Source: Thiosulfativibrio zosterae
GTDB taxonomy: Bacteria; Pseudomonadota; Gammaproteobacteria; Thiomicrospirales; Thiomicrospiraceae
NCBI RefSeq assembly: GCF_011398155.1
Contig: NZ_AP021888.1
Location: 124,001-188,000, forward strand
Direction: 5' to 3'
Length of the DNA stretch: 64,000 nucleotides
This document shows, piece by piece, positions 10,180 to 39,100 of the stretch; the stretch's first letter is position 1; every line of letters starts with the position of its first letter. Under the pieces are notes generated by a model. That model saw nothing but the letters and a program-made list of their open reading frames with translations, was not told the origin of the DNA and ran no database searches. A program made the position numbers and the translations under genes.

Positions 10180-10650
10180 TTATTCAAGCCAGCTGGGTTT
10201 AGGGCTTTCTGAGCGACCGGCTTCAAAACCTTTGTCTACAAAACCATGCAAGGTCGCATCGTGGGCATGAATCAGTTCAATTAGTTTTGGGTTTTCGGTG
10301 GTGAGCGTAGCTTCAACGCCTTTGGGGATGGCTTTGTAATCCATGCTGATTTCATCTTTATATTCAAATAATGCCACAAATAATGGATCCCAAGAGCGTA
10401 TCGCGCGACCCATTCCAAAACGCTTTTCCATGCCGACAACATGCTGTTGTAATACTTTGGCCAGGTGTGGGTTGTCTGAGGTCGTGGTAGCGACGATGCC
10501 ATTGTCAATTAAACGCGTTTCGCGCTTAAGTTGTTGATGTTCTTGAAGCAATTCGTGAAACAGGGCCTGGTCGGCTTTGTGCTGTTCGTCAGCGCCGCCG
10601 CGACCGAGTTTATAGACTTTGCCTTCGAGATTTGCGTGAGCGTCTTGCAT
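10180..10650 (-). CDS. Unknown protein with internal duplication
   Basis: A 156-residue soluble protein that I do not recognise; no signal peptide, membrane segment or cysteine. It contains two related halves. GIVATTTSDNPHLAKVLQQH in the middle matches GVEATLTTENPKLIELIHAH about 65 residues later, sharing G-x-x-A-T-x-T-x-x-N-P-x-L and a closing His. Each half ends in His-rich helical sequence, so a symmetric ligand or metal site is conceivable but unproven. ATG at 10650 is chosen over a TTG 12 bases upstream because GGAGAAC lies properly in front. It precedes trxC by 57 bases on the same strand and is probably in one operon with it. The imperfect palindrome ACAGGGCCTGGT occurs inside. Confidence 0.75.
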   Translation of the reverse strand: MQDAHANLEGKVYKLGRGGADEQHKADQALFHELLQEHQQLKRETRLIDNGIVATTTSDNPHLAKVLQQHVVGMEKRFGMGRAIRSWDPLFVALFEYKDEISMDYKAIPKGVEATLTTENPKLIELIHAHDATLHGFVDKGFEAGRSESPKPSWLE

Positions 10651-10707
10651 GGTGTTCTCCAAAATAGGGATTTGATAGATTTATTGTAGGACTTTTCTCT
10701 GGTAAAA

Positions 10708-11051: not shown

Positions 11052-11387
11052 TTAAGAATTAGGCTCCATTTTCTCAGACTGCTGATAGTAGTTTGAGCGC
11101 ATCTGTAAATTAGATGCGTAAGTTAATTGCGCCTGAGTTGTTTCATTCTTTTCTAAAGATTTATTTTCCATAGACTCAGACGATTTAACCGTTTTGTTTG
11201 AGGCTAGATTTAAATAATCTACAGACTGGCTTGGAGAACCAGACGACAAACTAACCGTTGTGCTCCCACCAGAAGATGTTGTGGATGTAGTTTTATCAGT
11301 CATTTTGTCTTCTTTCATCGCCAAAGGCTGTTGCTGTGGCATGTAAGACTGAATGGCTGAGGGCATTGCTGGATTAATGGTTGCCAT
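11052..11387 (-). CDS. Small Ser/Thr-rich protein, unknown
   Basis: A 111-residue hydrophilic protein, rich in Ser, Thr, Gln and Asn, with no signal peptide, membrane segment or cysteine. The stretch STTSSGGSTTVSLSSGS is low-complexity. The C-terminal part (AQLTYASNLQMRSNYYQQ) looks helical. I do not recognise a family. It is a real gene by its ribosome site (AGGAGG six bases before ATG 11387) and its terminator 18 bases after the stop. It is transcribed divergently from the giant adhesin gene across a 307-bp AT-rich spacer, so the two may share regulation. Confidence 0.7.
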   Translation of the reverse strand: MATINPAMPSAIQSYMPQQQPLAMKEDKMTDKTTSTTSSGGSTTVSLSSGSPSQSVDYLNLASNKTVKSSESMENKSLEKNETTQAQLTYASNLQMRSNYYQQSEKMEPNS

Positions 11388-11694: not shown

Positions 11695-12150
11695 ATGTTG
11701 CCAAATTTACCCCATATCGCAATCGGAAAAGTTATTGAAGTCACAGGCTATGTACAAGCCATAGATGTTAATGGTGTGCCAAGAGTTTTAAGCGTTGGAG
11801 ATACCGTTTATTCTTTTGAAAGGATAGTGACTTCTGACAAGGGTTCGATTTTAATTGATATCGGTTTAGAAGGCGCTGACAACGTAACCCAGCTAGCACT
11901 TGGCAAAGATACCAGCATGATTCTGGATGATGATGTCATTCCAGGTTTGTCTTCCTTAGACAGCGCAACCCAAGATTCCGCAGTGGATGTAGCCTCCATA
12001 CAAGAAGCCGTTTTAAAAGGCCTTTTCGATAGCATGGAAAAAACAGAGGCGGGGGGAGAAAATGCAGAGTCTTCTTTGTCAACTGACCTAGATTTTATAC
12101 AAACCGGAGCGACTGGTGAAGTTACTGCGGGTTATGACACATCTGCAGAG
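11695..12150 (+). other. N-terminal retention module of the adhesin
   Basis: The first 150 residues (GKVIEVTGYVQAIDVNGVPR, VLSVGDTVYSFERIVT, then a helix with SIQEAVLKGL and EVTAGYDTS) match the module that plugs LapA-type adhesins in the TolC-like pore. The di-alanine LapG target is expected just after the IQxA helix. At that place the sequence is K-T-E-A-G-G (116-121), so one of the two alanines is Glu. Confidence 0.82.
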
Positions 12151-15100
12151 TTTGAATCGCGTTCTTATACAAGGGATTTCGAAGGCTTTAGATCTGCACA
12201 GTTTGCCATTTCACCTAATTCACCTTTTTTTGGTTTTCAGTTTCCCGGTACACCGGTAACCCCTTCACCAGTAACCCCTACACCAGTAACACCTACACCG
12301 GTAACACCTACGCCAGTAACACCTACACCGGTAACACCTACACCGGTAACACCTACACCGGTAACACCTACACCGGTAACACCTACACCGGTAACACCTA
12401 CGCCAGTAACACCTACGCCTCCGACTGTTGAAAACCCCGTCAATTTAGCGCGCTTTACAGATAATTTTGTAAACGGTGTTGAATATACAACCAGTTCAGG
12501 ATTGACCGGTTTAACAGGAGATTCTGGTGTTGCGGGTGAGTTCAAATTTAGAGATGGCGATACCATTACCTTCAAAGTGGGCGATGTTATTGTCGGTGTA
12601 TTTAGCGCAGATGTTGTTAAAGGGGATTTACTGTTCTTGCAAGATATTGCGGGTACTGAGCTTTCTGATAACAACTCCATGTATGTTGAAAACATGGCGA
12701 TTTTCCTACAAGCCATTGATAGTGATCTAAAAGATAGCACGCCTGACGATGGCATTTTGCAAACCAATAGTTTGGTGGATGTCGATTCTAGCTATGGCAC
12801 TAATATCAATATTACTCAAGAAATGCGTGATGCGTTTACAGGTTATTTAGACCCAACAACGGGTGAGCCATTAAATATTGCGAACTCTGATAAAGAAATG
12901 ATTTCTTTGGTGTTGGATAGTGTCAATATTGAATTTACACGTGAATCCGAGGGTGAAGTTGAAGTGGGTTCCGGCAACAGTGGTAATGTGTTCGAAAGCA
13001 TTGCTATGCAACATGTTGCAGATACCATTCAAGATTTGGCAGGTGATAGAACGCCCGCTGAAGCTGATGCCCGATTGGCTGATGAATTAGAAGTGCCAGG
13101 TGGTGTTGTTGAATATAACTTTCAAGAAATCCAAAGCATGGATGTTCCTCAAATCACGTTTGATGCCAGAGATTTGCTACAGGGTGCGGTAGGTCAGCAG
13201 GTATTTGATGGCAATTTAATCGTTAAAAATGTCACTTTGGCGGCAGGTTTTGAAGATATCGGCGAGTTAGTCAGTTTAGGTGATGACAAATACGCAATTA
13301 ATCTGCGTGATGATATTACGCCTTATGATTTGGAAGGCTTATCTTTAAATTATCGTGTACAAGACTGGACAGTTTACCGCGATGTCACTTCAACAACCCT
13401 AGATACTCATAAAGCCCACTTGTCTGCTGAAATTGAAAATGTGGTCGAAGACGCAGGCTATTCACAGTTTACGGTCAAAAGCACGTTAGCGTTTGATAGT
13501 GATCAACAGCTAACCGTTAAGTTTTCTCCGGAAACTGCTGGGTCAAACTTCGCAGAATACTCCGATGATTTTATGGTTCCGCTGGAATATTCAAACGATG
13601 GTGGTGTGACTTGGAATACCATGAATATCGTCGATACCTATACACGTGACGATTACGATAAACCGCTTCCTGTATTCAGTTTTACCCTTGCCGCCAACAC
13701 CACTGATGTTGTGATTCGTATCCCGATTTTTGATGACCCATACAACGAAGACCCTGCTGGCAGTATCGATCCGCTTACGGGTCAAGGCATGGAAGTCATT
13801 GATATGTTGGTTGAGGGTGATAATTTCTATGCTGAAAAACTACAACCTGGCATTATTGATAACGATCCAAGTTCTGATAAACCTGTTGTTGAAGTTGATT
13901 TTGCAGTAGTCAATGAGGCAGATGGTTTTGCAGTTATAACGTTTAGTCTGGTTGATTCAGATAAAAATCCAATTACATTCAATGAAGATATTGTTGTTGA
14001 TTATCAAACGGGTGATTTAAGCGCGGTTGCAGGACAAGATTATACCGCTTTGAGTGGTTCTATCACGATTCCAGCAGGTCAAGGATCTGTGCAGTTATCC
14101 ATTCCAATTATTGATGATAACTTGGTTGAAACCCTAGAGTTTTTAAAACTCAGCTTAACCTCTGTTTCAGACAATGCCGTTCTAGGGGACCCAGAAGCAT
14201 CAGTTCGTATTTACGACAACGACGGTATCAATATCTCTGGAGAAACAAACCCCGAAGGAAACAATGTTGTATTTACGGTTACCTTAAGTGAGGGGATTGA
14301 TTCGTCCGCAATACTAAAATTAAGCCCAACCAACTCTGGCGCAACAGCGACAAAAGATGTTGATTTCGACTCAAGCACTTTAAAAGCCTTCTATATTGAT
14401 GGCAATAACAATGAAGTCGTTCTAACAACCACGGCTGGTCAAGGTTTCTCTGTGCCTGATGGTGTTACGCAATTTTTTGTTACATATGAAAGTATTGATG
14501 ACAGCATAATTGAACTTGACGAAACTGTGCGTATGCAGGTTTTCGCTGAGCTAGCAGATGGTACTGATCGTTTAGCGATTGGTACGGCAACGATTACTAA
14601 TAATGATTTCCCAGAATTCAACATGGGCACAGACTTCGTAGTAGATGAAGCCGCAGGCACCATTAGCTTCACCGTCACCAAAACCGGCGACACCACCCAA
14701 GCCTCAACAGTCGACTTCACGACAGTCGACGGCACAGCGCTTGCCGGCACTGACTACACCGCCCAAAGTGGCACACTGAGTTTTGCCGCGGGAGAAACCA
14801 GCAAAACCATCACAGTTGCCATCACCAATGACGCGGTCTTTGAAGGTGCAGAAAACTTCAAAGTCCAAATCAGCAACCCAAGCAACGCCACCATCGGTGA
14901 CAACGACCAAGTCGCGACCATCAAAGACGACGGCAGTACAGGCATCACAGATGACGACCGTCCAGAATTCAACATGGGCACAGACTTCGTAGTAGATGAA
15001 GCCGCAGGCACCATTAGCTTCACCGTCACCAAAACCGGCGACACCACCCAAGCCTCAACAGTCGACTTCACGACAGTCGACGGCACAGCGCTTGCCGGCA

Positions 15101-18100
15101 CTGACTACACCGCCCAAAGTGGCACACTGAGTTTTGCCGCGGGAGAAACCAGCAAAACCATCACAGTTGCCATCACCAATGACGCGGTCTTTGAAGGTGC
15201 AGAAAACTTCAAAGTCCAAATCAGCAACCCAAGCAACGCCACCATCGGTGACAACGACCAAGTCGCGACCATCAAAGACGACGGCAGTACAGGCATCACA
15301 GATGACGACCGTCCAGAATTCAACATGGGCACAGACTTCGTAGTAGATGAAGCCGCAGGCACCATTAGCTTCACCGTCACCAAAACCGGCGACACCACCC
15401 AAGCCTCAACAGTCGACTTCACGACAGTCGACGGCACAGCGCTTGCCGGCACTGACTACACCGCCCAAAGTGGCACACTGAGTTTTGCCGCGGGAGAAAC
15501 CAGCAAAACCATCACAGTTGCCATCACCAATGACGCGGTCTTTGAAGGTGCAGAAAACTTCAAAGTCCAAATCAGCAACCCAAGCAACGCCACCATCGGT
15601 GACAACGACCAAGTCGCGACCATCAAAGACGACGGCAGTACAGGCATCACAGATGACGACCGTCCAGAATTCAACATGGGCACAGACTTCGTAGTAGATG
15701 AAGCCGCAGGCACCATTAGCTTCACCGTCACCAAAACCGGCGACACCACCCAAGCCTCAACAGTCGACTTCACGACAGTCGACGGCACAGCGCTTGCCGG
15801 CACTGACTACACCGCCCAAAGTGGCACACTGAGTTTTGCCGCGGGAGAAACCAGCAAAACCATCACAGTTGCCATCACCAATGACGCGGTCTTTGAAGGT
15901 GCAGAAAACTTCAAAGTCCAAATCAGCAACCCAAGCAACGCCACCATCGGTGACAACGACCAAGTCGCGACCATCAAAGACGACGGCAGTACAGGCATCA
16001 CAGATGACGACCGTCCAGAATTCAACATGGGCACAGACTTCGTAGTAGATGAAGCCGCAGGCACCATTAGCTTCACCGTCACCAAAACCGGCGACACCAC
16101 CCAAGCCTCAACAGTCGACTTCACGACAGTCGACGGCACAGCGCTTGCCGGCACTGACTACACCGCCCAAAGTGGCACACTGAGTTTTGCCGCGGGAGAA
16201 ACCAGCAAAACCATCACAGTTGCCATCACCAATGACGCGGTCTTTGAAGGTGCAGAAAACTTCAAAGTCCAAATCAGCAACCCAAGCAACGCCACCATCG
16301 GTGACAACGACCAAGTCGCGACCATCAAAGACGACGGCAGTACAGGCATCACAGATGACGACCGTCCAGAATTCAACATGGGCACAGACTTCGTAGTAGA
16401 TGAAGCCGCAGGCACCATTAGCTTCACCGTCACCAAAACCGGCGACACCACCCAAGCCTCAACAGTCGACTTCACGACAGTCGACGGCACAGCGCTTGCC
16501 GGCACTGACTACACCGCCCAAAGTGGCACACTGAGTTTTGCCGCGGGAGAAACCAGCAAAACCATCACAGTTGCCATCACCAATGACGCGGTCTTTGAAG
16601 GTGCAGAAAACTTCAAAGTCCAAATCAGCAACCCAAGCAACGCCACCATCGGTGACAACGACCAAGTCGCGACCATCAAAGACGACGGCAGTACAGGCAT
16701 CACAGATGACGACCGTCCAGAATTCAACATGGGCACAGACTTCGTAGTAGATGAAGCCGCAGGCACCATTAGCTTCACCGTCACCAAAACCGGCGACACC
16801 ACCCAAGCCTCAACAGTCGACTTCACGACAGTCGACGGCACAGCGCTTGCCGGCACTGACTACACCGCCCAAAGTGGCACACTGAGTTTTGCCGCGGGAG
16901 AAACCAGCAAAACCATCACAGTTGCCATCACCAATGACGCGGTCTTTGAAGGTGCAGAAAACTTCAAAGTCCAAATCAGCAACCCAAGCAACGCCACCAT
17001 CGGTGACAACGACCAAGTCGCGACCATCAAAGACGACGGCAGTACAGGCATCACAGATGACGACCGTCCAGAATTCAACATGGGCACAGACTTCGTAGTA
17101 GATGAAGCCGCAGGCACCATTAGCTTCACCGTCACCAAAACCGGCGACACCACCCAAGCCTCAACAGTCGACTTCACGACAGTCGACGGCACAGCGCTTG
17201 CCGGCACTGACTACACCGCCCAAAGTGGCACACTGAGTTTTGCCGCGGGAGAAACCAGCAAAACCATCACAGTTGCCATCACCAATGACGCGGTCTTTGA
17301 AGGTGCAGAAAACTTCAAAGTCCAAATCAGCAACCCAAGCAACGCCACCATCGGTGACAACGACCAAGTCGCGACCATCAAAGACGACGGCAGTACAGGC
17401 ATCACAGATGACGACCGTCCAGAATTCAACATGGGCACAGACTTCGTAGTAGATGAAGCCGCAGGCACCATTAGCTTCACCGTCACCAAAACCGGCGACA
17501 CCACCCAAGCCTCAACAGTCGACTTCACGACAGTCGACGGCACAGCGCTTGCCGGCACTGACTACACCGCCCAAAGTGGCACACTGAGTTTTGCCGCGGG
17601 AGAAACCAGCAAAACCATCACAGTTGCCATCACCAATGACGCGGTCTTTGAAGGTGCAGAAAACTTCAAAGTCCAAATCAGCAACCCAAGCAACGCCACC
17701 ATCGGTGACAACGACCAAGTCGCGACCATCAAAGACGACGGCAGTACAGGCATCACAGATGACGACCGTCCAGAATTCAACATGGGCACAGACTTCGTAG
17801 TAGATGAAGCCGCAGGCACCATTAGCTTCACCGTCACCAAAACCGGCGACACCACCCAAGCCTCAACAGTCGACTTCACGACAGTCGACGGCACAGCGCT
17901 TGCCGGCACTGACTACACCGCCCAAAGTGGCACACTGAGTTTTGCCGCGGGAGAAACCAGCAAAACCATCACAGTTGCCATCACCAATGACGCGGTCTTT
18001 GAAGGTGCAGAAAACTTCAAAGTCCAAATCAGCAACCCAAGCAACGCCACCATCGGTGACAACGACCAAGTCGCGACCATCAAAGACGACGGCAGTACAG

Positions 18101-21100
18101 GCATCACAGATGACGACCGTCCAGAATTCAACATGGGCACAGACTTCGTAGTAGATGAAGCCGCAGGCACCATTAGCTTCACCGTCACCAAAACCGGCGA
18201 CACCACCCAAGCCTCAACAGTCGACTTCACGACAGTCGACGGCACAGCGCTTGCCGGCACTGACTACACCGCCCAAAGTGGCACACTGAGTTTTGCCGCG
18301 GGAGAAACCAGCAAAACCATCACAGTTGCCATCACCAATGACGCGGTCTTTGAAGGTGCAGAAAACTTCAAAGTCCAAATCAGCAACCCAAGCAACGCCA
18401 CCATCGGTGACAACGACCAAGTCGCGACCATCAAAGACGACGGCAGTACAGGCATCACAGATGACGACCGTCCAGAATTCAACATGGGCACAGACTTCGT
18501 AGTAGATGAAGCCGCAGGCACCATTAGCTTCACCGTCACCAAAACCGGCGACACCACCCAAGCCTCAACAGTCGACTTCACGACAGTCGACGGCACAGCG
18601 CTTGCCGGCACTGACTACACCGCCCAAAGTGGCACACTGAGTTTTGCCGCGGGAGAAACCAGCAAAACCATCACAGTTGCCATCACCAATGACGCGGTCT
18701 TTGAAGGTGCAGAAAACTTCAAAGTCCAAATCAGCAACCCAAGCAACGCCACCATCGGTGACAACGACCAAGTCGCGACCATCAAAGACGACGGCAGTAC
18801 AGGCATCACAGATGACGACCGTCCAGAATTCAACATGGGCACAGACTTCGTAGTAGATGAAGCCGCAGGCACCATTAGCTTCACCGTCACCAAAACCGGC
18901 GACACCACCCAAGCCTCAACAGTCGACTTCACGACAGTCGACGGCACAGCGCTTGCCGGCACTGACTACACCGCCCAAAGTGGCACACTGAGTTTTGCCG
19001 CGGGAGAAACCAGCAAAACCATCACAGTTGCCATCACCAATGACGCGGTCTTTGAAGGTGCAGAAAACTTCAAAGTCCAAATCAGCAACCCAAGCAACGC
19101 CACCATCGGTGACAACGACCAAGTCGCGACCATCAAAGACGACGGCAGTACAGGCATCACAGATGACGACCGTCCAGAATTCAACATGGGCACAGACTTC
19201 GTAGTAGATGAAGCCGCAGGCACCATTAGCTTCACCGTCACCAAAACCGGCGACACCACCCAAGCCTCAACAGTCGACTTCACGACAGTCGACGGCACAG
19301 CGCTTGCCGGCACTGACTACACCGCCCAAAGTGGCACACTGAGTTTTGCCGCGGGAGAAACCAGCAAAACCATCACAGTTGCCATCACCAATGACGCGGT
19401 CTTTGAAGGTGCAGAAAACTTCAAAGTCCAAATCAGCAACCCAAGCAACGCCACCATCGGTGACAACGACCAAGTCGCGACCATCAAAGACGACGGCAGT
19501 ACAGGCATCACAGATGACGACCGTCCAGAATTCAACATGGGCACAGACTTCGTAGTAGATGAAGCCGCAGGCACCATTAGCTTCACCGTCACCAAAACCG
19601 GCGACACCACCCAAGCCTCAACAGTCGACTTCACGACAGTCGACGGCACAGCGCTTGCCGGCACTGACTACACCGCCCAAAGTGGCACACTGAGTTTTGC
19701 CGCGGGAGAAACCAGCAAAACCATCACAGTTGCCATCACCAATGACGCGGTCTTTGAAGGTGCAGAAAACTTCAAAGTCCAAATCAGCAACCCAAGCAAC
19801 GCCACCATCGGTGACAACGACCAAGTCGCGACCATCAAAGACGACGGCAGTACAGGCATCACAGATGACGACCGTCCAGAATTCAACATGGGCACAGACT
19901 TCGTAGTAGATGAAGCCGCAGGCACCATTAGCTTCACCGTCACCAAAACCGGCGACACCACCCAAGCCTCAACAGTCGACTTCACGACAGTCGACGGCAC
20001 AGCGCTTGCCGGCACTGACTACACCGCCCAAAGTGGCACACTGAGTTTTGCCGCGGGAGAAACCAGCAAAACCATCACAGTTGCCATCACCAATGACGCG
20101 GTCTTTGAAGGTGCAGAAAACTTCAAAGTCCAAATCAGCAACCCAAGCAACGCCACCATCGGTGACAACGACCAAGTCGCGACCATCAAAGACGACGGCA
20201 GTACAGGCATCACAGATGACGACCGTCCAGAATTCAACATGGGCACAGACTTCGTAGTAGATGAAGCCGCAGGCACCATTAGCTTCACCGTCACCAAAAC
20301 CGGCGACACCACCCAAGCCTCAACAGTCGACTTCACGACAGTCGACGGCACAGCGCTTGCCGGCACTGACTACACCGCCCAAAGTGGCACACTGAGTTTT
20401 GCCGCGGGAGAAACCAGCAAAACCATCACAGTTGCCATCACCAATGACGCGGTCTTTGAAGGTGCAGAAAACTTCAAAGTCCAAATCAGCAACCCAAGCA
20501 ACGCCACCATCGGTGACAACGACCAAGTCGCGACCATCAAAGACGACGGCAGTACAGGCATCACAGATGACGACCGTCCAGAATTCAACATGGGCACAGA
20601 CTTCGTAGTAGATGAAGCCGCAGGCACCATTAGCTTCACCGTCACCAAAACCGGCGACACCACCCAAGCCTCAACAGTCGACTTCACGACAGTCGACGGC
20701 ACAGCGCTTGCCGGCACTGACTACACCGCCCAAAGTGGCACACTGAGTTTTGCCGCGGGAGAAACCAGCAAAACCATCACAGTTGCCATCACCAATGACG
20801 CGGTCTTTGAAGGTGCAGAAAACTTCAAAGTCCAAATCAGCAACCCAAGCAACGCCACCATCGGTGACAACGACCAAGTCGCGACCATCAAAGACGACGG
20901 CAGTACAGGCATCACAGATGACGACCGTCCAGAATTCAACATGGGCACAGACTTCGTAGTAGATGAAGCCGCAGGCACCATTAGCTTCACCGTCACCAAA
21001 ACCGGCGACACCACCCAAGCCTCAACAGTCGACTTCACGACAGTCGACGGCACAGCGCTTGCCGGCACTGACTACACCGCCCAAAGTGGCACACTGAGTT

Positions 21101-24100
21101 TTGCCGCGGGAGAAACCAGCAAAACCATCACAGTTGCCATCACCAATGACGCGGTCTTTGAAGGTGCAGAAAACTTCAAAGTCCAAATCAGCAACCCAAG
21201 CAACGCCACCATCGGTGACAACGACCAAGTCGCGACCATCAAAGACGACGGCAGTACAGGCATCACAGATGACGACCGTCCAGAATTCAACATGGGCACA
21301 GACTTCGTAGTAGATGAAGCCGCAGGCACCATTAGCTTCACCGTCACCAAAACCGGCGACACCACCCAAGCCTCAACAGTCGACTTCACGACAGTCGACG
21401 GCACAGCGCTTGCCGGCACTGACTACACCGCCCAAAGTGGCACACTGAGTTTTGCCGCGGGAGAAACCAGCAAAACCATCACAGTTGCCATCACCAATGA
21501 CGCGGTCTTTGAAGGTGCAGAAAACTTCAAAGTCCAAATCAGCAACCCAAGCAACGCCACCATCGGTGACAACGACCAAGTCGCGACCATCAAAGACGAC
21601 GGCAGTACAGGCATCACAGATGACGACCGTCCAGAATTCAACATGGGCACAGACTTCGTAGTAGATGAAGCCGCAGGCACCATTAGCTTCACCGTCACCA
21701 AAACCGGCGACACCACCCAAGCCTCAACAGTCGACTTCACGACAGTCGACGGCACAGCGCTTGCCGGCACTGACTACACCGCCCAAAGTGGCACACTGAG
21801 TTTTGCCGCGGGAGAAACCAGCAAAACCATCACAGTTGCCATCACCAATGACGCGGTCTTTGAAGGTGCAGAAAACTTCAAAGTCCAAATCAGCAACCCA
21901 AGCAACGCCACCATCGGTGACAACGACCAAGTCGCGACCATCAAAGACGACGGCAGTACAGGCATCACAGATGACGACCGTCCAGAATTCAACATGGGCA
22001 CAGACTTCGTAGTAGATGAAGCCGCAGGCACCATTAGCTTCACCGTCACCAAAACCGGCGACACCACCCAAGCCTCAACAGTCGACTTCACGACAGTCGA
22101 CGGCACAGCGCTTGCCGGCACTGACTACACCGCCCAAAGTGGCACACTGAGTTTTGCCGCGGGAGAAACCAGCAAAACCATCACAGTTGCCATCACCAAT
22201 GACGCGGTCTTTGAAGGTGCAGAAAACTTCAAAGTCCAAATCAGCAACCCAAGCAACGCCACCATCGGTGACAACGACCAAGTCGCGACCATCAAAGACG
22301 ACGGCAGTACAGGCATCACAGATGACGACCGTCCAGAATTCAACATGGGCACAGACTTCGTAGTAGATGAAGCCGCAGGCACCATTAGCTTCACCGTCAC
22401 CAAAACCGGCGACACCACCCAAGCCTCAACAGTCGACTTCACGACAGTCGACGGCACAGCGCTTGCCGGCACTGACTACACCGCCCAAAGTGGCACACTG
22501 AGTTTTGCCGCGGGAGAAACCAGCAAAACCATCACAGTTGCCATCACCAATGACGCGGTCTTTGAAGGTGCAGAAAACTTCAAAGTCCAAATCAGCAACC
22601 CAAGCAACGCCACCATCGGTGACAACGACCAAGTCGCGACCATCAAAGACGACGGCAGTACAGGCATCACAGATGACGACCGTCCAGAATTCAACATGGG
22701 CACAGACTTCGTAGTAGATGAAGCCGCAGGCACCATTAGCTTCACCGTCACCAAAACCGGCGACACCACCCAAGCCTCAACAGTCGACTTCACGACAGTC
22801 GACGGCACAGCGCTTGCCGGCACTGACTACACCGCCCAAAGTGGCACACTGAGTTTTGCCGCGGGAGAAACCAGCAAAACCATCACAGTTGCCATCACCA
22901 ATGACGCGGTCTTTGAAGGTGCAGAAAACTTCAAAGTCCAAATCAGCAACCCAAGCAACGCCACCATCGGTGACAACGACCAAGTCGCGACCATCAAAGA
23001 CGACGGCAGTACAGGCATCACAGATGACGACCGTCCAGAATTCAACATGGGCACAGACTTCGTAGTAGATGAAGCCGCAGGCACCATTAGCTTCACCGTC
23101 ACCAAAACCGGCGACACCACCCAAGCCTCAACAGTCGACTTCACGACAGTCGACGGCACAGCGCTTGCCGGCACTGACTACACCGCCCAAAGTGGCACAC
23201 TGAGTTTTGCCGCGGGAGAAACCAGCAAAACCATCACAGTTGCCATCACCAATGACGCGGTCTTTGAAGGTGCAGAAAACTTCAAAGTCCAAATCAGCAA
23301 CCCAAGCAACGCCACCATCGGTGACAACGACCAAGTCGCGACCATCAAAGACGACGGCAGTACAGGCATCACAGATGACGACCGTCCAGAATTCAACATG
23401 GGCACAGACTTCGTAGTAGATGAAGCCGCAGGCACCATTAGCTTCACCGTCACCAAAACCGGCGACACCACCCAAGCCTCAACAGTCGACTTCACGACAG
23501 TCGACGGCACAGCGCTTGCCGGCACTGACTACACCGCCCAAAGTGGCACACTGAGTTTTGCCGCGGGAGAAACCAGCAAAACCATCACAGTTGCCATCAC
23601 CAATGACGCGGTCTTTGAAGGTGCAGAAAACTTCAAAGTCCAAATCAGCAACCCAAGCAACGCCACCATCGGTGACAACGACCAAGTCGCGACCATCAAA
23701 GACGACGGCAGTACAGGCATCACAGATGACGACCGTCCAGAATTCAACATGGGCACAGACTTCGTAGTAGATGAAGCCGCAGGCACCATTAGCTTCACCG
23801 TCACCAAAACCGGCGACACCACCCAAGCCTCAACAGTCGACTTCACGACAGTCGACGGCACAGCGCTTGCCGGCACTGACTACACCGCCCAAAGTGGCAC
23901 ACTGAGTTTTGCCGCGGGAGAAACCAGCAAAACCATCACAGTTGCCATCACCAATGACGCGGTCTTTGAAGGTGCAGAAAACTTCAAAGTCCAAATCAGC
24001 AACCCAAGCAACGCCACCATCGGTGACAACGACCAAGTCGCGACCATCAAAGACGACGGCAGTACAGGCATCACAGATGACGACCGTCCAGAATTCAACA

Positions 24101-27100
24101 TGGGCACAGACTTCGTAGTAGATGAAGCCGCAGGCACCATTAGCTTCACCGTCACCAAAACCGGCGACACCACCCAAGCCTCAACAGTCGACTTCACGAC
24201 AGTCGACGGCACAGCGCTTGCCGGCACTGACTACACCGCCCAAAGTGGCACACTGAGTTTTGCCGCGGGAGAAACCAGCAAAACCATCACAGTTGCCATC
24301 ACCAATGACGCGGTCTTTGAAGGTGCAGAAAACTTCAAAGTCCAAATCAGCAACCCAAGCAACGCCACCATCGGTGACAACGACCAAGTCGCGACCATCA
24401 AAGACGACGGCAGTACAGGCATCACAGATGACGACCGTCCAGAATTCAACATGGGCACAGACTTCGTAGTAGATGAAGCCGCAGGCACCATTAGCTTCAC
24501 CGTCACCAAAACCGGCGACACCACCCAAGCCTCAACAGTCGACTTCACGACAGTCGACGGCACAGCGCTTGCCGGCACTGACTACACCGCCCAAAGTGGC
24601 ACACTGAGTTTTGCCGCGGGAGAAACCAGCAAAACCATCACAGTTGCCATCACCAATGACGCGGTCTTTGAAGGTGCAGAAAACTTCAAAGTCCAAATCA
24701 GCAACCCAAGCAACGCCACCATCGGTGACAACGACCAAGTCGCGACCATCAAAGACGACGGCAGTACAGGCATCACAGATGACGACCGTCCAGAATTCAA
24801 CATGGGCACAGACTTCGTAGTAGATGAAGCCGCAGGCACCATTAGCTTCACCGTCACCAAAACCGGCGACACCACCCAAGCCTCAACAGTCGACTTCACG
24901 ACAGTCGACGGCACAGCGCTTGCCGGCACTGACTACACCGCCCAAAGTGGCACACTGAGTTTTGCCGCGGGAGAAACCAGCAAAACCATCACAGTTGCCA
25001 TCACCAATGACGCGGTCTTTGAAGGTGCAGAAAACTTCAAAGTCCAAATCAGCAACCCAAGCAACGCCACCATCGGTGACAACGACCAAGTCGCGACCAT
25101 CAAAGACGACGGCAGTACAGGCATCACAGATGACGACCGTCCAGAATTCAACATGGGCACAGACTTCGTAGTAGATGAAGCCGCAGGCACCATTAGCTTC
25201 ACCGTCACCAAAACCGGCGACACCACCCAAGCCTCAACAGTCGACTTCACGACAGTCGACGGCACAGCGCTTGCCGGCACTGACTACACCGCCCAAAGTG
25301 GCACACTGAGTTTTGCCGCGGGAGAAACCAGCAAAACCATCACAGTTGCCATCACCAATGACGCGGTCTTTGAAGGTGCAGAAAACTTCAAAGTCCAAAT
25401 CAGCAACCCAAGCAACGCCACCATCGGTGACAACGACCAAGTCGCGACCATCAAAGACGACGGCAGTACAGGCATCACAGATGACGACCGTCCAGAATTC
25501 AACATGGGCACAGACTTCGTAGTAGATGAAGCCGCAGGCACCATTAGCTTCACCGTCACCAAAACCGGCGACACCACCCAAGCCTCAACAGTCGACTTCA
25601 CGACAGTCGACGGCACAGCGCTTGCCGGCACTGACTACACCGCCCAAAGTGGCACACTGAGTTTTGCCGCGGGAGAAACCAGCAAAACCATCACAGTTGC
25701 CATCACCAATGACGCGGTCTTTGAAGGTGCAGAAAACTTCAAAGTCCAAATCAGCAACCCAAGCAACGCCACCATCGGTGACAACGACCAAGTCGCGACC
25801 ATCAAAGACGACGGCAGTACAGGCATCACAGATGACGACCGTCCAGAATTCAACATGGGCACAGACTTCGTAGTAGATGAAGCCGCAGGCACCATTAGCT
25901 TCACCGTCACCAAAACCGGCGACACCACCCAAGCCTCAACAGTCGACTTCACGACAGTCGACGGCACAGCGCTTGCCGGCACTGACTACACCGCCCAAAG
26001 TGGCACACTGAGTTTTGCCGCGGGAGAAACCAGCAAAACCATCACAGTTGCCATCACCAATGACGCGGTCTTTGAAGGTGCAGAAAACTTCAAAGTCCAA
26101 ATCAGCAACCCAAGCAACGCCACCATCGGTGACAACGACCAAGTCGCGACCATCAAAGACGACGGCAGTACAGGCATCACAGATGACGACCGTCCAGAAT
26201 TCAACATGGGCACAGACTTCGTAGTAGATGAAGCCGCAGGCACCATTAGCTTCACCGTCACCAAAACCGGCGACACCACCCAAGCCTCAACAGTCGACTT
26301 CACGACAGTCGACGGCACAGCGCTTGCCGGCACTGACTACACCGCCCAAAGTGGCACACTGAGTTTTGCCGCGGGAGAAACCAGCAAAACCATCACAGTT
26401 GCCATCACCAATGACGCGGTCTTTGAAGGTGCAGAAAACTTCAAAGTCCAAATCAGCAACCCAAGCAACGCCACCATCGGTGACAACGACCAAGTCGCGA
26501 CCATCAAAGACGACGGCAGTACAGGCATCACAGATGACGACCGTCCAGAATTCAACATGGGCACAGACTTCGTAGTAGATGAAGCCGCAGGCACCATTAG
26601 CTTCACCGTCACCAAAACCGGCGACACCACCCAAGCCTCAACAGTCGACTTCACGACAGTCGACGGCACAGCGCTTGCCGGCACTGACTACACCGCCCAA
26701 AGTGGCACACTGAGTTTTGCCGCGGGAGAAACCAGCAAAACCATCACAGTTGCCATCACCAATGACGCGGTCTTTGAAGGTGCAGAAAACTTCAAAGTCC
26801 AAATCAGCAACCCAAGCAACGCCACCATCGGTGACAACGACCAAGTCGCGACCATCAAAGACGACGGCAGTACAGGCATCACAGATGACGACCGTCCAGA
26901 ATTCAACATGGGCACAGACTTCGTAGTAGATGAAGCCGCAGGCACCATTAGCTTCACCGTCACCAAAACCGGCGACACCACCCAAGCCTCAACAGTCGAC
27001 TTCACGACAGTCGACGGCACAGCGCTTGCCGGCACTGACTACACCGCCCAAAGTGGCACACTGAGTTTTGCCGCGGGAGAAACCAGCAAAACCATCACAG

Positions 27101-30100
27101 TTGCCATCACCAATGACGCGGTCTTTGAAGGTGCAGAAAACTTCAAAGTCCAAATCAGCAACCCAAGCAACGCCACCATCGGTGACAACGACCAAGTCGC
27201 GACCATCAAAGACGACGGCAGTACAGGCATCACAGATGACGACCGTCCAGAATTCAACATGGGCACAGACTTCGTAGTAGATGAAGCCGCAGGCACCATT
27301 AGCTTCACCGTCACCAAAACCGGCGACACCACCCAAGCCTCAACAGTCGACTTCACGACAGTCGACGGCACAGCGCTTGCCGGCACTGACTACACCGCCC
27401 AAAGTGGCACACTGAGTTTTGCCGCGGGAGAAACCAGCAAAACCATCACAGTTGCCATCACCAATGACGCGGTCTTTGAAGGTGCAGAAAACTTCAAAGT
27501 CCAAATCAGCAACCCAAGCAACGCCACCATCGGTGACAACGACCAAGTCGCGACCATCAAAGACGACGGCAGTACAGGCATCACAGATGACGACCGTCCA
27601 GAATTCAACATGGGCACAGACTTCGTAGTAGATGAAGCCGCAGGCACCATTAGCTTCACCGTCACCAAAACCGGCGACACCACCCAAGCCTCAACAGTCG
27701 ACTTCACGACAGTCGACGGCACAGCGCTTGCCGGCACTGACTACACCGCCCAAAGTGGCACACTGAGTTTTGCCGCGGGAGAAACCAGCAAAACCATCAC
27801 AGTTGCCATCACCAATGACGCGGTCTTTGAAGGTGCAGAAAACTTCAAAGTCCAAATCAGCAACCCAAGCAACGCCACCATCGGTGACAACGACCAAGTC
27901 GCGACCATCAAAGACGACGGCAGTACAGGCATCACAGATGACGACCGTCCAGAATTCAACATGGGCACAGACTTCGTAGTAGATGAAGCCGCAGGCACCA
28001 TTAGCTTCACCGTCACCAAAACCGGCGACACCACCCAAGCCTCAACAGTCGACTTCACGACAGTCGACGGCACAGCGCTTGCCGGCACTGACTACACCGC
28101 CCAAAGTGGCACACTGAGTTTTGCCGCGGGAGAAACCAGCAAAACCATCACAGTTGCCATCACCAATGACGCGGTCTTTGAAGGTGCAGAAAACTTCAAA
28201 GTCCAAATCAGCAACCCAAGCAACGCCACCATCGGTGACAACGACCAAGTCGCGACCATCAAAGACGACGGCAGTACAGGCATCACAGATGACGACCGTC
28301 CAGAATTCAACATGGGCACAGACTTCGTAGTAGATGAAGCCGCAGGCACCATTAGCTTCACCGTCACCAAAACCGGCGACACCACCCAAGCCTCAACAGT
28401 CGACTTCACGACAGTCGACGGCACAGCGCTTGCCGGCACTGACTACACCGCCCAAAGTGGCACACTGAGTTTTGCCGCGGGAGAAACCAGCAAAACCATC
28501 ACAGTTGCCATCACCAATGACGCGGTCTTTGAAGGTGCAGAAAACTTCAAAGTCCAAATCAGCAACCCAAGCAACGCCACCATCGGTGACAACGACCAAG
28601 TCGCGACCATCAAAGACGACGGCAGTACAGGCATCACAGATGACGACCGTCCAGAATTCAACATGGGCACAGACTTCGTAGTAGATGAAGCCGCAGGCAC
28701 CATTAGCTTCACCGTCACCAAAACCGGCGACACCACCCAAGCCTCAACAGTCGACTTCACGACAGTCGACGGCACAGCGCTTGCCGGCACTGACTACACC
28801 GCCCAAAGTGGCACACTGAGTTTTGCCGCGGGAGAAACCAGCAAAACCATCACAGTTGCCATCACCAATGACGCGGTCTTTGAAGGTGCAGAAAACTTCA
28901 AAGTCCAAATCAGCAACCCAAGCAACGCCACCATCGGTGACAACGACCAAGTCGCGACCATCAAAGACGACGGCAGTACAGGCATCACAGATGACGACCG
29001 TCCAGAATTCAACATGGGCACAGACTTCGTAGTAGATGAAGCCGCAGGCACCATTAGCTTCACCGTCACCAAAACCGGCGACACCACCCAAGCCTCAACA
29101 GTCGACTTCACGACAGTCGACGGCACAGCGCTTGCCGGCACTGACTACACCGCCCAAAGTGGCACACTGAGTTTTGCCGCGGGAGAAACCAGCAAAACCA
29201 TCACAGTTGCCATCACCAATGACGCGGTCTTTGAAGGTGCAGAAAACTTCAAAGTCCAAATCAGCAACCCAAGCAACGCCACCATCGGTGACAACGACCA
29301 AGTCGCGACCATCAAAGACGACGGCAGTACAGGCATCACAGATGACGACCGTCCAGAATTCAACATGGGCACAGACTTCGTAGTAGATGAAGCCGCAGGC
29401 ACCATTAGCTTCACCGTCACCAAAACCGGCGACACCACCCAAGCCTCAACAGTCGACTTCACGACAGTCGACGGCACAGCGCTTGCCGGCACTGACTACA
29501 CCGCCCAAAGTGGCACACTGAGTTTTGCCGCGGGAGAAACCAGCAAAACCATCACAGTTGCCATCACCAATGACGCGGTCTTTGAAGGTGCAGAAAACTT
29601 CAAAGTCCAAATCAGCAACCCAAGCAACGCCACCATCGGTGACAACGACCAAGTCGCGACCATCAAAGACGACGGCAGTACAGGCATCACAGATGACGAC
29701 CGTCCAGAATTCAACATGGGCACAGACTTCGTAGTAGATGAAGCCGCAGGCACCATTAGCTTCACCGTCACCAAAACCGGCGACACCACCCAAGCCTCAA
29801 CAGTCGACTTCACGACAGTCGACGGCACAGCGCTTGCCGGCACTGACTACACCGCCCAAAGTGGCACACTGAGTTTTGCCGCGGGAGAAACCAGCAAAAC
29901 CATCACAGTTGCCATCACCAATGACGCGGTCTTTGAAGGTGCAGAAAACTTCAAAGTCCAAATCAGCAACCCAAGCAACGCCACCATCGGTGACAACGAC
30001 CAAGTCGCGACCATCAAAGACGACGGCAGTACAGGCATCACAGATGACGACCGTCCAGAATTCAACATGGGCACAGACTTCGTAGTAGATGAAGCCGCAG

Positions 30101-33100
30101 GCACCATTAGCTTCACCGTCACCAAAACCGGCGACACCACCCAAGCCTCAACAGTCGACTTCACGACAGTCGACGGCACAGCGCTTGCCGGCACTGACTA
30201 CACCGCCCAAAGTGGCACACTGAGTTTTGCCGCGGGAGAAACCAGCAAAACCATCACAGTTGCCATCACCAATGACGCGGTCTTTGAAGGTGCAGAAAAC
30301 TTCAAAGTCCAAATCAGCAACCCAAGCAACGCCACCATCGGTGACAACGACCAAGTCGCGACCATCAAAGACGACGGCAGTACAGGCATCACAGATGACG
30401 ACCGTCCAGAATTCAACATGGGCACAGACTTCGTAGTAGATGAAGCCGCAGGCACCATTAGCTTCACCGTCACCAAAACCGGCGACACCACCCAAGCCTC
30501 AACAGTCGACTTCACGACAGTCGACGGCACAGCGCTTGCCGGCACTGACTACACCGCCCAAAGTGGCACACTGAGTTTTGCCGCGGGAGAAACCAGCAAA
30601 ACCATCACAGTTGCCATCACCAATGACGCGGTCTTTGAAGGTGCAGAAAACTTCAAAGTCCAAATCAGCAACCCAAGCAACGCCACCATCGGTGACAACG
30701 ACCAAGTCGCGACCATCAAAGACGACGGCAGTACAGGCATCACAGATGACGACCGTCCAGAATTCAACATGGGCACAGACTTCGTAGTAGATGAAGCCGC
30801 AGGCACCATTAGCTTCACCGTCACCAAAACCGGCGACACCACCCAAGCCTCAACAGTCGACTTCACGACAGTCGACGGCACAGCGCTTGCCGGCACTGAC
30901 TACACCGCCCAAAGTGGCACACTGAGTTTTGCCGCGGGAGAAACCAGCAAAACCATCACAGTTGCCATCACCAATGACGCGGTCTTTGAAGGTGCAGAAA
31001 ACTTCAAAGTCCAAATCAGCAACCCAAGCAACGCCACCATCGGTGACAACGACCAAGTCGCGACCATCAAAGACGACGGCAGTATCTCCGACGACGACAC
31101 AGTCAGCGTCACCACGGTGGGAGCAGCGACAGAAACCGAAGGCAGCGACTTAACGCACACAGTCACCATGAGTGGCGTAGCGGACAGCGCAAAAACCTAC
31201 AGCTTCAATGTTACCGATATCACCGCGACGGCCGGCAGTGACTACACAGCCACCCCAAGCTTCAGCAATGGCGTAACTTACGATGCACTCAGCGGTCAGA
31301 TTACAGTCCCAGCAAATGTTAGTAGCTTCACAGTGACCTTCCCAGGGCTTGCGGATGCGCTTGATGAAAGTGATGAAACCTACAGCCTCACGATCGGAGG
31401 AGTCAGCGGCACAGGAACGATTACGGATGACGACAATGCACCTGTTGCGAATGATGATCCTTCAACGGCACCTTATTATGTTGAAGTTGGTAATGTTTCA
31501 AGCTCTATTTATGACTATACATGGACAAATACAGGGACGGCAAATTGGAATAACACCGACAGTAATGATTCAACAGTTAAAGTTACGGCGTTTGACAGCC
31601 AAGGCAATGCGGTTTCAGTGTCAACAACTAGTAATGTTGTTTTAGGAACAGGTTCGTCAAGCACTGTTGTTAGCAATGGTAATGAAAGTTTTGAGTTAGG
31701 AGTAGCGGGTTCTCCTAGAGGAGATGATGATTGGCCAGCAGAGCAAATTGAATATCATGCTGGAACGCAAACTTCCGAAGCTCTAGTTTTCCAATTTAGC
31801 GGTTATATGAATGAGGCCACTGTTAAAGTCAGTCACTTAATTGGAAACGAAGGTGGTGGTGAAAAAGGACAATGGATTGCTATGTTAGATGGCACGGTTG
31901 TTGCCACAGAGATATTTGCTTCTGACACAGTTGTTATAAACACGGGTAATTTTGTGTTTAACGAATTGCGTTTTGAGGCGCTTCCATACACGCTTCAAAC
32001 CGGAACAGGCGATAGTGATGCTTCTGATTATTTTATCCAGTCTATTCAAGGCAGTGGTCCTGCAAATGCAAACAGTGATTATTCGACGACAGAAGATGCA
32101 ACTTTAGTTATTGACACTGAATCATTTGGAGTTCTAAAAAATGATTCTGATGCAGATAACGATGCTGTTAATGTTATTAAAGTAAACGGTCAAGTGGTGA
32201 ATGACGGTGCAACGGTAACTTTAGCAAGTGGTGCTTTGCTAACGATTCATTCAAATGGGACATTTGATTACAACCCAAATGGACAGTTCAATAGCTTAGC
32301 TGCAGGCCAAGTGGATCAAGATAGTTTTACTTATCAAATACAAGATATTCATGGTAATACCCTTAATACAGCAAATGGAGAAGGCCCTAATAGTGATCTG
32401 GACAGTGTAGCGACGGCAACGATTACCATTATAGGTAAAGGCGAACCTTATCAACCCGCAACACCTAATATTGCACCCGTAGCGGTAGATGACAGCATCA
32501 ACGCCACCGAAGACAGCGTGTATACCTCAACGATAGACTTAGATGCAAATGACACAGACCTAGATGGCGACAACCTAAGTGTCGTGGCAGGCACCTTCAC
32601 CACCACTCAAGGCGGCACCTTAGTGCTAGCAGCCGATGGCAGCTACACTTACACACCCGCGCTCAACTTCAATGGGGTAGACACAGTTGACTACACAGTC
32701 ACAGATGGATCTCTAACAGATGTAGGCACCTTAACCATCAATGTAGGCGCCGTGAACGACGCACCCGTAGCGGTGGATGACAGCATCAACGCCACCGAAG
32801 ATAGCGTGTATACCTCAACGATAGACTTAGATGCAAATGACACAGACCTAGATGGCGACAACCTAAGTGTCGTGGCAGGCACCTTCACCACCACTCAAGG
32901 CGGCACCTTAGTGCTAGCAGCCGATGGCAGCTACACTTACACACCCGCGAGCAACTTCAATGGGGTAGACACAGTTGACTACACAGTCACAGATGGATCT
33001 CTAACAGATGTAGGCACCTTGAGCATCACTGTAGGCGCGGTGAACGACGCACCCGTAGCGGTAGATGACAGCATCAACGCCACCGAAGACAGCGTGTATA

Positions 33101-36100
33101 CCTCAACGATAGACTTAGATGCAAATGACACAGACCTAGATGGCGACAACCTAAGTGTCGTGGCAGGCACCTTCACCACCACTCAAGGCGGCACCTTAGT
33201 GCTAGCAGCCGATGGCAGCTACACTTACACACCCGCGCTCAACTTCAATGGGGTAGACACAGTTGACTACACAGTCACAGATGGATCTCTAACAGATGTA
33301 GGCACCTTAACCATCAATGTAGGCGCCGTGAACGACGCACCCGTAGCGGTGGATGACAGCATCAACGCCACCGAAGATAGCGTGTATACCTCAACGATAG
33401 ACTTAGATGCAAATGACACAGACCTAGATGGCGACAACCTAAGTGTCGTGGCAGGCACCTTCACCACCACTCAAGGCGGCACCTTAGTGCTAGCAGCCGA
33501 TGGCAGCTACACTTACACACCCGCGAGCAACTTCAATGGGGTAGACACAGTTGACTACACAGTCACAGATGGATCTCTAACAGATGTAGGCACCTTGAGC
33601 ATCACTGTAGGCGCGGTGAACGACGCACCCGTAGCGGTAGATGACAGCATCAACGCCACCGAAGACAGCGTGTATACCTCAACGATAGACTTAGATGCAA
33701 ATGACACAGACCTAGATGGCGACAACCTAAGTGTCGTGGCAGGCACCTTCACCACCACTCAAGGCGGCACCTTAGTGCTAGCAGCCGATGGCAGCTACAC
33801 TTACACACCCGCGAGCAACTTCAATGGGGTAGACACAGTTGACTACACAGTCACAGATGGATCTCTAACAGATGTAGGCACCTTGAGCATCACTGTAGGC
33901 GCGGTGAACGACGCACCCGTAGCGGTAGATGACAGCATCAACGCCACCGAAGACAGCGTGTATACCTCAACGATAGACTTAGATGCAAATGACACAGACC
34001 TAGATGGCGACAACCTAAGTGTCGTGGCAGGCACCTTCACCACCACTCAAGGCGGCACCTTAGTGCTAGCAGCCGATGGCAGCTACACTTACACACCCGC
34101 GAGCAACTTCAATGGGGTAGACACAGTTGACTACACAGTCACAGATGGATCTCTAACAGATGTAGGCACCTTGAGCATCACTGTAGGCGCGGTGAACGAC
34201 GCACCCGTAGCGGTAGATGACAGCATCAACGCCACCGAAGACAGCGTGTATACCTCAACGATAGACTTAGATGCAAATGACACAGACCTAGATGGCGACA
34301 ACCTAAGTGTCGTGGCAGGCACCTTCACCACAACTCAAGGCGGCACCTTAGTGCTAGCAGCCGATGGCAGCTACACTTACACACCCGCGCTCAACTTCAA
34401 TGGGGTAGACACAGTTGACTACACAGTCACAGATGGATCTCTAACAGATGTAGGCACCTTAACCATCAATGTAGGCGCCGTGAACGACGCACCCGTAGCG
34501 GTGGATGACAGCATCAACGCCACCGAAGATAGCGTGTATACCTCAACGATAGACTTAGATGCAAATGACACAGACCTAGATGGCGACAACCTAAGTGTCG
34601 TGGCAGGCACCTTCACCACAACTCAAGGCGGCACCTTAGTGCTAGCAGCCGATGGCAGCTACACTTACACACCCGCGCTCAACTTCAATGGGGTAGACAC
34701 AGTTGACTACACAGTCACAGATGGATCTCTAACAGATGTAGGCACCTTAACCATCAATGTAGGCGCCGTGAACGACGCACCCGTAGCGGTGGATGACAGC
34801 ATCAACGCCACCGAAGATAGCGTGTATACCTCAACGATAGACTTAGATGCAAATGACACAGACCTAGATGGCGACAACCTAAGTGTCGTGGCAGGCACCT
34901 TCACCACAACTCAAGGCGGCACCTTAGTGCTAGCAGCCGATGGCAGCTACACTTACACACCCGCGCTCAACTTCAATGGGGTAGACACAGTTGACTACAC
35001 AGTCACAGATGGATCTCTAACAGATGTAGGCACCTTAACCATCAATGTAGGCGCCGTGAACGACGCACCAGAATCCGCTGCTGGTTTGGTTGTTACTTGC
35101 GAAGATATTTCTTATACCTTTAGATTGGCTGATTTTGGTTTTAGCGATGTTGATGGAGATTCTTTAGCATCGATTCGCATCGAAAATCTACCAATTGATG
35201 GTGAATTATCGCTTAATGGTGAGCCTGTCATTGCAAATCAGTCAGTGTCTCAAACTGAAATCGCGAATGGCCTTTTGGTCTTTACACCGGATGCTAATGA
35301 ATCAGGTATAGATGCTTATCAAGTAGTGGGTACAGGAGATCAACATCAAGATTATGCAACCTTTCAATTTAGTGTTTCTGATGGAGCTGAATGGAGTTCA
35401 GCAACTTTAATGACGATTGATGTAAGCCCTGTTGTTGATAGTCCATTAATATCTGTTGTGGGCTCTAAATCAACTGAGATTACGATTGATGTAAGTAATG
35501 TCACTACTTCACAATCAGGCTTTAGCGTGACTGCCTATAATGCCGATGGCTCGCAAGGAACAGTTAGTTTAGTAACAGGAACTACACATGATGGCTTTGG
35601 CGTATCAGGTGTTGCAAGTGGCGCTGATGTTGAGTTGGGTGTAAACACTGCAGGTAATAGCGAAATGTTAGTGGTTCATTTTGATTATCCTGTTAGTTCA
35701 GCTGCAGTCGCATTTGCCTGGCAACATCCTGGAGAAGAGGCTCAATACGATTTTTATTTAAATGGTGTTCAAGTTGGGTCGGGCTCAAATTATGGCATTA
35801 CAGATACTGTAGATCCAATACTAAACCTAACCGCCAATGGTTCTTCATTTGATGAAATTAGATTTAAAGCGCCAGATTACGAAGATGATTATTTAATTAA
35901 TCAAATTTCATTTACGCAGGTCATTGAGAATAACAACTCTTTACAGGTTGATGCAGGTAGCACCGTTGATTTGTCTTTAACCGCAAACTTACAGGATAAC
36001 GATGGATCGGAAACCATCAGCAGTCTTGTTATTGGTAATATTCCTAATGGTGTGACGATTACTGATGGAAGTCACAGCTTTACGGCAAGCGAAGGTTCTA

Positions 36101-39100
36101 ATTCAGTGGATGTATTAAACTGGACAATCGATTCGATTGAATTAACTGTTCCGGCTAGTTATGAAGGAACTATTAATCTTGATATTCAAGCAATGGCGCA
36201 AGAGTCTTTGGCTGGTCTAGCTGAAGGTGAAAATTGTCCATTAACAACAGTAGCCCATACATCTTTTGTTTTAGATGTTAATGCCAATCTTAATGCTGCG
36301 ATAATTACCATTGGTGATGTTCAAGTAGATGAAGATGCACTTGTTGCTACTTATCAGATTTCTGTTGATCATGCTCCAAAAAATCAACCTTTAGTGGTTA
36401 CCTTGAATCAGTTAGATGCTTCGGGTGATCCAATTGTTATTGAGATTCCAGTGGGTGAAACCAGCGCTTCTAAACAAGTGAGTATTGCGTTAACTGTAAA
36501 TTCTGATGAAGACCTTAATGATATTGGCATTACTTCTGCAGCAGGAGGTAACTATTTATCGATTGATAGCTCTGACACAGCTAAATTTGTTGTTAATGCT
36601 GTTGCTGACATACCGACAGTTTCTATTGATATTGGCGAAGCTCAGTATATTAATGGTACAACTCAAACAACCTTAGCTGAGAAAACAATTTCTTTGACTG
36701 TTAATGTAACGCTAGGAGATGAGTATGGTGATGACAATATTTCAGGTACTAATGGCTATGAATATATAGAAACTTCTGAACAGGTTCTAGACTTTGGTGC
36801 AGAGTATGCCGGACAAACAGTTGTGCTTGATTTATCAGGAAATATTAAAGGGGATTGGAATCAAGGCGAAAATGTATTGGACGACTACTGGAAAGTGTCG
36901 GCTAATGATCAAGAATTGGCAACCTACAAATATGGTTCAGCAAATAATAATGATGTTTCGCAAAACTTCAATTATCAGCATACAGTAACGCTTGATAACT
37001 CTGGAAAAGTAGTTTTAAACATTGAAGCCGCCACAACTTCTAAATCTGAAACGGTCACTATTAATGGCATTACAGGACTGGTCAATGAAGTTACCGTGAC
37101 TAACTCTTCTGAAGAAGATGAGCGTTTAGAATATCCAGTAGTTATTTCTGCTGCGTTAAATGATTCTGATGGTAGTGAAACACTCACAGTTACCATAAAA
37201 AATGTTCCGCAAGGTGCTACTTTTGATATAGGTAGTGACTTAGGAAACGGTGTTTGGTCAATTCCTGTGAGTGGTTCAAGTTTAAATGAGTCTTTAAGCT
37301 TAAAAGTACCAATAAGTGTTGCGGAGAATTTATCGGCCTTAAACCTAGAAATTTCTGCTACATCAACTGAAAGCAGAGATAACGCTGATGGAACAAACTT
37401 TGTTACTGTAACCGCTAATGATTCAGCGACCACTCCTGTTCTTGACCTAAAACCAGAAGGTGAAGATGAATCACAAACATTAACTTTTGAAAATATTACT
37501 TCGAATCTTACATTTATTGTTGATGTATCAAGCAGCATGAGTAACGAGGATTTATCGTTAACCGAAAATGCCATTGAAAAAATCATCAGTCAATATGACG
37601 GATTAGGATCAGTCAATATAAATATTGTGCAGTTCTGGGGTAATGGAGCAAGCCAAACAAGCTGGATTAATAATGTCAGTAATTATGATGCTGGTGGTAG
37701 TTTGTATACCGATAAATCTGGTACAGATCCTGAACAAGGGTTGCGTCTAGTCGTGGATGCTTACTCTGGGAATGTACCTGAAGCAGACCAGGATATCGTC
37801 TTCTATTTTGGAGACGGAGATCCTTATGATGCTTATAAAACTGACTTTAAGTCTTATCAAACAACATGGCAGAATTTTGCTAATAATACGGTTGATATGG
37901 TTAAAGCCTATGGTATTAATGTTAACAGTTTAGACATATTAAATCAGATTGTTTCTTCTAACGAAGAGCCTGTTTACGTCAGTGATGTAAGTGATTTAGA
38001 TGATGCGGTTGAAAATATCGCTGAAACAGTTTTAACAGGGAACCTGCTAGATAACATTAGCGGTGGAGATCCTCAAATTCATATTCAGTCTATTACGGTT
38101 GATGACACTAGTTATGATGCTTCTAGCTTCCCAGAAAATGGCTTAGCAATAGGTGGTCAAGGAACCTTGTTGGTTAATTTTGTGACGGGTGAATATAACT
38201 ATATTGCCAATAGCAATGAATTTTTAAGCGATGTTAGTAAAGTCTTTTCTGTTAGTGCTAAAGATGCTGATGGAGACACTACCAGTTTTGAAGTAACCAT
38301 CAATGTAGATGTTGATAATACAGCAACCGTGCCTAACCTAACGGTAAAAACAGGAACTCCAGAGTTAGTCTCTACTTTTACAGAACAGGATACTTTCCAC
38401 GATACAAATGATTTTGAGTTAAAAGCTAATAAGCTTGCAGAAAAAACCTATGACTTAAAAGGGGATGCGACAAGTTTTACAATCAGAATAGAAGATTACA
38501 AAGCGAGTCAAGACGGTGGTAGTGTTGAATTGTATAAAGATGGAAACTTAGTTGAAACGGTTTCTCTAGATTCTTTAACGAACAATAACAATGATAACCA
38601 TGCAAGAAGTTATAGCTATACAGGTGACCAATCATTTGATCAAGTGAAAATATCAATTGATGACAGCTCTGGAACTAGTTTCAAGATAAAAGATTTTAAA
38701 GCAACAATCTTAACAGGTGAAACTGAATCAAATTATGAATATGTTATCGACATAGACGCATCAGTAAATGATAGCAGTGAAACGATTTCTTCTATAAGCA
38801 TTGATGGGCTGCCCAATAATACATCTTTAACTAATTCAGCTGGAGATGAAATTAGTATCTCAGGTGGTACTGCAACATTAACGGTTGAACAGTTGGTCGG
38901 TTTGAAGTTAATCAGCGCCACAGAATTAGTAAATGACCCCAATGATTCTATCCATATTACGGTGACAGCAACTTCTACTGAAACAAATAGTGGTGATACG
39001 GCGGTTCGAACCGCTACTTTGATTGACGGTGTTATCGAAGGTCTTATCTATGTTTCAAGTTCAGGAGATATGGGTAAAACTGATGCTTTGGGCCGGTTTA

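Follow-up and report, generated by a model that had tools for sequence, protein, structure and literature searches.

The adhesin gene in the 64,000-nucleotide window of the Thiosulfativibrio zosterae genome analysed here (NZ_AP021888.1, positions 124,001 to 188,000; positions below count from its first letter) raises the question of whether a giant LapA-type adhesin can still be released when glutamate stands before the expected cut. In the usual LapA systems, loss of c-di-GMP from LapD sets LapG free to cleave between two alanines just past the plug, and this cut lets the adhesin go. The LapG of Pseudomonas fluorescens cleaves between Ala108 and Ala109 (PMC3032545), and Legionella RtxA is cut between residues 108 and 109 (PMC11264772); the substrate consensus is a docking helix, whose role has been described, followed by [T/A/P]AAG (PMC13090378). 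As far as a partial literature search goes, the requirement for the two alanines rests on double changes of Ala-Ala to Arg-Arg, which abolish cutting by LapG (PMC3032545, PMC6890996, PMC13090378); these published mutants turn both alanines to Arg, and no test of Glu alone before the cut was found in that search. Where LapG is intact and the genome has no other retention module, a natural change of the pre-cut alanine to glutamate puts the strictness of the Ala-Ala rule to the test, and asks whether one base can abolish c-di-GMP-controlled release.

The N-terminus of the adhesin matches the NCBIfam model NF033682 (retention_LapA) over residues 12-138 (E=2e-10) at 41 bits, which is below the curated cut-off of 50 bits for this model. 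A profile built from the module and its relatives finds an anchor domain of known structure, 5ix9 (PDB name "Antifreeze protein", E=6e-15), and the match extends to that protein's own DAPAAG site. In the family alignments the predicted docking helix before the site lies at residues 96-116, and the site region, which in relatives reads VDxxALQQAxLEGNFDxLEATAAG, is AVDVASIQEAVLKGLFDSMEKTEAG in the adhesin. The codons ACA GAG GCG GGG encode T117, E118, A119 and G120, and the resulting TEAG occupies the TAAG/PAAG column without gaps. Thus the preceding Thr and the following Ala-Gly are kept, the pre-cut Ala is changed to Glu, and TEAG stands at the aligned position in place of the di-alanine site [T/A/P]AAG. 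The possibility that TEAG is misaligned and a true di-alanine lies nearby was rejected, because the alignment is gapless and the Ala-Ala dipeptide does not occur within residues 1-400. The initial annotation had proposed a LapA-type module with TEAG at the LapG cleavage position (residues 117-120); the model and profile matches with the family alignment, and the codons with the gapless alignments, bear out these two points respectively, and there is no alternative di-alanine in the first 400 residues. Judged by its sequence, the adhesin is a genuine LapA-type tether.

Table 1. Positions of the adhesin gene, its parts and the neighbouring marker genes within the window
Feature	Coordinates	Strand	Basis
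Second conserved gene upstream that marks the adhesin locus	10180..10662	-	tblastn matches beside the adhesin start at 12 family loci
Small conserved gene upstream that marks the adhesin locus in relatives	11052..11387	-	tblastn matches beside the adhesin start at 14 family loci
Giant LapA-type adhesin (ATG start; 9,540 aa plus stop)	11695..40317	+	Open frame, N-terminal retention module, tandem repeats, domain matches in the C-terminal third
N-terminal retention module: docking helix, cleavage site, then conserved VTAGYDT element	11695..12150	+	NF033682, 5ix9 profile match, family alignment
Predicted LapG docking (targeting) helix AVDVASIQEAVLKGLFDSMEK, residues 96-116	11980..12042	+	Aligns with VDxxALQQAxLEGNFDxLEA of relatives
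LapG site position, TEAG replacing xAAG	12043..12054	+	Codons and gapless alignment with TAAG/PAAG
VTPTP linker, 15-bp tandem repeat, 11.2 copies	12249..12416	+	
Stalk: 46.9 essentially identical 351-bp (117-aa) repeats	14611..31084	+	
96-aa (288-bp) repeat, 9.0 copies	32473..35069	+	Tandem-95 repeat family matches in the same part of the protein

Beyond the module, the features of the gene are those of a giant repetitive adhesin (Table 1). The 351-bp stalk repeats were scored as 100% matching, so they may reflect either very recent expansion or strong homogenisation. The C-terminal third has tandem-95, VCBS and weak BapA/LapF-type matches; a GGxGxD RTX motif was not found in the adhesin, nor was an RNA element upstream of it. 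The gene immediately 3' (40393-41796) codes for a fusion of a protein kinase domain with Sel1 repeats.

How unusual the glutamate is can be gauged from modules collected in surveys of the family (62 genomes), the class (369 genomes) and another order (293 genomes), and in the genomes reached via LapG. Among 209 unique retention-module matches from Gammaproteobacteria, 178 show xAAG at the expected place, where x is T (108), P (44), I (17) or another residue (9), and two more (L302, L230) have AAG outside the scanned stretch. Ten deviants can be aligned at the site, their variants having been identified by visual inspection of the sequences: TEAG in the adhesin under study, and PGAG, PASG, TASG (twice), TQVG, SSAG (twice), PAVG and PALG. 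The pre-cut position is thus G, S or Q in a few other adhesins, while Glu occurs there once among the 209 matches and is the sole charged residue at that position among the ten alignable deviants, which makes the substitution exceptional. In four modules (L023, L074, L078, L180) the whole site is swapped for a longer, different linker; the rest are truncated, FecR-like or not alignable at the site.

The two genes upstream of the adhesin allow its position to be followed in relatives. At 17 loci of the family one or both of them adjoin the start of the adhesin gene, and the adhesin has AAG in all 17. In the tree the module pairs with a TAAG module (L011; support 98/92), both on long branches, and the four site-less modules form a clade of their own (support 100/99) apart from it. 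Since every syntenic relative has AAG and the sister module has TAAG, the glutamate is a derived state that arose along this lineage, separately from the loss of the site in the site-less clade; a single base turns the Ala codon GCG into the Glu codon GAG. The candidate explanation that the module belongs to the site-less clade was rejected by the tree, and the linker of the adhesin keeps TxAG. The sister module comes from a metagenome assembly (G042 / G427; L133, L011), rated 8% contaminated, which carries two LapGs, one of them 78% identical to that of T. zosterae; part of this assembly may come from a close relative of T. zosterae.

The proteins needed for release were then sought in the genome (one contig, 2.65 Mb, rated 100% complete), and lapG, lapD and a type I exporter, for which the initial annotation had advised a search, are all present and look intact. 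A lap operon at 2.19-2.20 Mb encodes, in order, TolC, a lipoprotein, an OmpA-like protein, LapG, LapD, LapB and LapC, and the exporter models TIGR03375, TIGR01843 and TIGR01844 all score above cut-off. LapG (BTLCP, Peptidase C93) matches 4fgo (E=1e-50), has the triad C121-H156-D173 and the calcium-site acids D120/E122 conserved, and shows no deviation at the 66 columns that are conserved in 90% or more of 110 LapGs. Its closest homologue (L133, 78% identical) differs from it only outside these columns; its uncommon residues are F143, D167, Q168, F181 and K45, and against the 110 LapGs no rare basic residue able to pair with the Glu was seen near the catalytic motifs. LapD has LapD_MoxY_N (PF16448, E=8.5e-46) with a GGDEF-EAL part, matches NF045673 at E=2.6e-135, below the strict cut-off of that model, and also matches 3pjw and 4u64. 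A missing or broken LapG or LapD was thus rejected as an explanation. Searches of the genome with the single sequence, the NCBI model and the family profile gave no second retention module, the other matches being weak and partial (E 0.05-0.1); a degenerate DNA search for the TEAG codons gave 32 matches versus 31 in a control.

The closest described counterpart is LapA of P. fluorescens with LapD/LapG and the LapBCE exporter (PMC3032545). Both are giant repetitive adhesins with a retention module and docking helix, and both systems have LapG, LapD, an ABC exporter, an HlyD-type adaptor and a TolC-type channel. Unlike LapA, the T. zosterae adhesin has TEAG rather than TAAG, its gene lies about 2 Mb from the lap operon, and the RTX motif was not detected in it. 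The anchor domain of the Marinomonas antifreeze/ice-binding adhesin (5ix9) resembles it over the retention domain in the profile match, and has PAAG at the site whereas T. zosterae has TEAG.

By analogy with these systems the adhesin would be exported C-terminus first through the LapB/LapC/TolC proteins encoded elsewhere in the genome, and its folded N-terminal module would stay in the periplasm and plug the outer-membrane channel. Glu118 before the cut is expected to make cutting by LapG slow or absent, so that the adhesin would be held far longer than usual even with active LapG; we infer this step from conservation and from the published Arg-Arg changes. We favour, with some reserve, the reading that the adhesin is a genuine LapA-type tether and that the Glu impairs its cleavage by LapG. 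The gapless site, the rarity of the substitution, AAG in all syntenic relatives, the lack of another Ala-Ala and the complete lap operon argue for it. Against it stand the retention of the docking helix and of T-x-A-G, and the full conservation of LapG, for which the TEAG module is the one retention-module substrate that could be recognised in the genome. A protease left with nothing to cut should degenerate, barring a recent change, so the constrained LapG, like the preserved helix, counts against permanent retention. Since LapG is intact, the retention module is the only one, and the helix and T-x-A-G are kept, cleavage at TEAG may persist at some rate or may have been lost recently, and the kept helix and Thr/Ala/Gly suggest that a loss of cutting is perhaps recent. 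The state of LapG and of the docking segment is compatible with cutting that was lost recently, with cutting that is slow, or with a LapG that tolerates Glu.

The last of these is the alternative with the most in its favour, although we consider it unlikely: LapG would still cut between the Glu and Ala of TEAG, either through a general tolerance of Glu given a good docking helix or through a subtly altered pocket, and c-di-GMP-controlled release would proceed as usual. It would explain the upkeep of an undeviating LapG, an intact LapD and an intact exporter, which no other retention module does, and it agrees both with the kept helix and flanking T, A and G and with the G, S and Q seen before the cut elsewhere. 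Nevertheless, the pre-cut Ala is nearly invariant across the survey, and LapG lacks a rare basic residue near its catalytic motifs to pair with the Glu. It is similarly doubtful that, with LapD and LapG under full constraint, the sole retained adhesin has become non-releasable or is cut by a LapG of new Glu-Ala specificity. The changed protease specificity suggested in the initial annotation finds no support in the sequence, as LapG deviates at no highly conserved position; the earlier interpretation is thus supported in part, the module type and the position of the site being confirmed.

Alternatively, the Glu codon could stem from a misread base, or from a GCG-to-GAG mutation confined to the culture that was sequenced, with the species itself having TAAG and behaving normally. 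The codons are one base apart, the Thr, Ala, Gly and helix around the site are intact, T. zosterae is the single genome of its genus in the comparison, and the base is without independent confirmation. The sequence quality looks good, because the assembly is a single complete contig and an uninterrupted frame spans 28.6 kb, near-identical repeats included, and we regard this explanation as improbable. Equally small is the chance that LapG, or some other protease of the periplasm, releases the adhesin by cutting elsewhere in the linker: the linker past TEAG is rich in small residues (NAESS, GATG, VTAG), but no Ala-Ala lies within 400 residues, and VTAG aligns with a VTSG/VTAG element that relatives have in addition to their AAG site and so is not a substitute site.

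Other natural departures from AAG are of use beyond the present case. The adhesins L109, L326, L328, L283, L131, L303, L083, L086 and L240, which carry PGAG, SSAG, PAVG, PALG, PASG, TASG and TQVG, are a useful panel for the specificity of LapG. In the site-less modules, three from the same family (L023, L074, L078) and one from Marinomonas gallaica (L180:6010-6504), a conserved linker of greater length, for example ELQQAGDELPPEIAKILEDRSK, takes the place of LEATAAG. Like the T. zosterae adhesin these have a retention module without a di-alanine; unlike it, they have lost the whole site, form a separate clade and occur in genomes that additionally encode an AAG adhesin. They are candidates for naturally non-releasable tethers.
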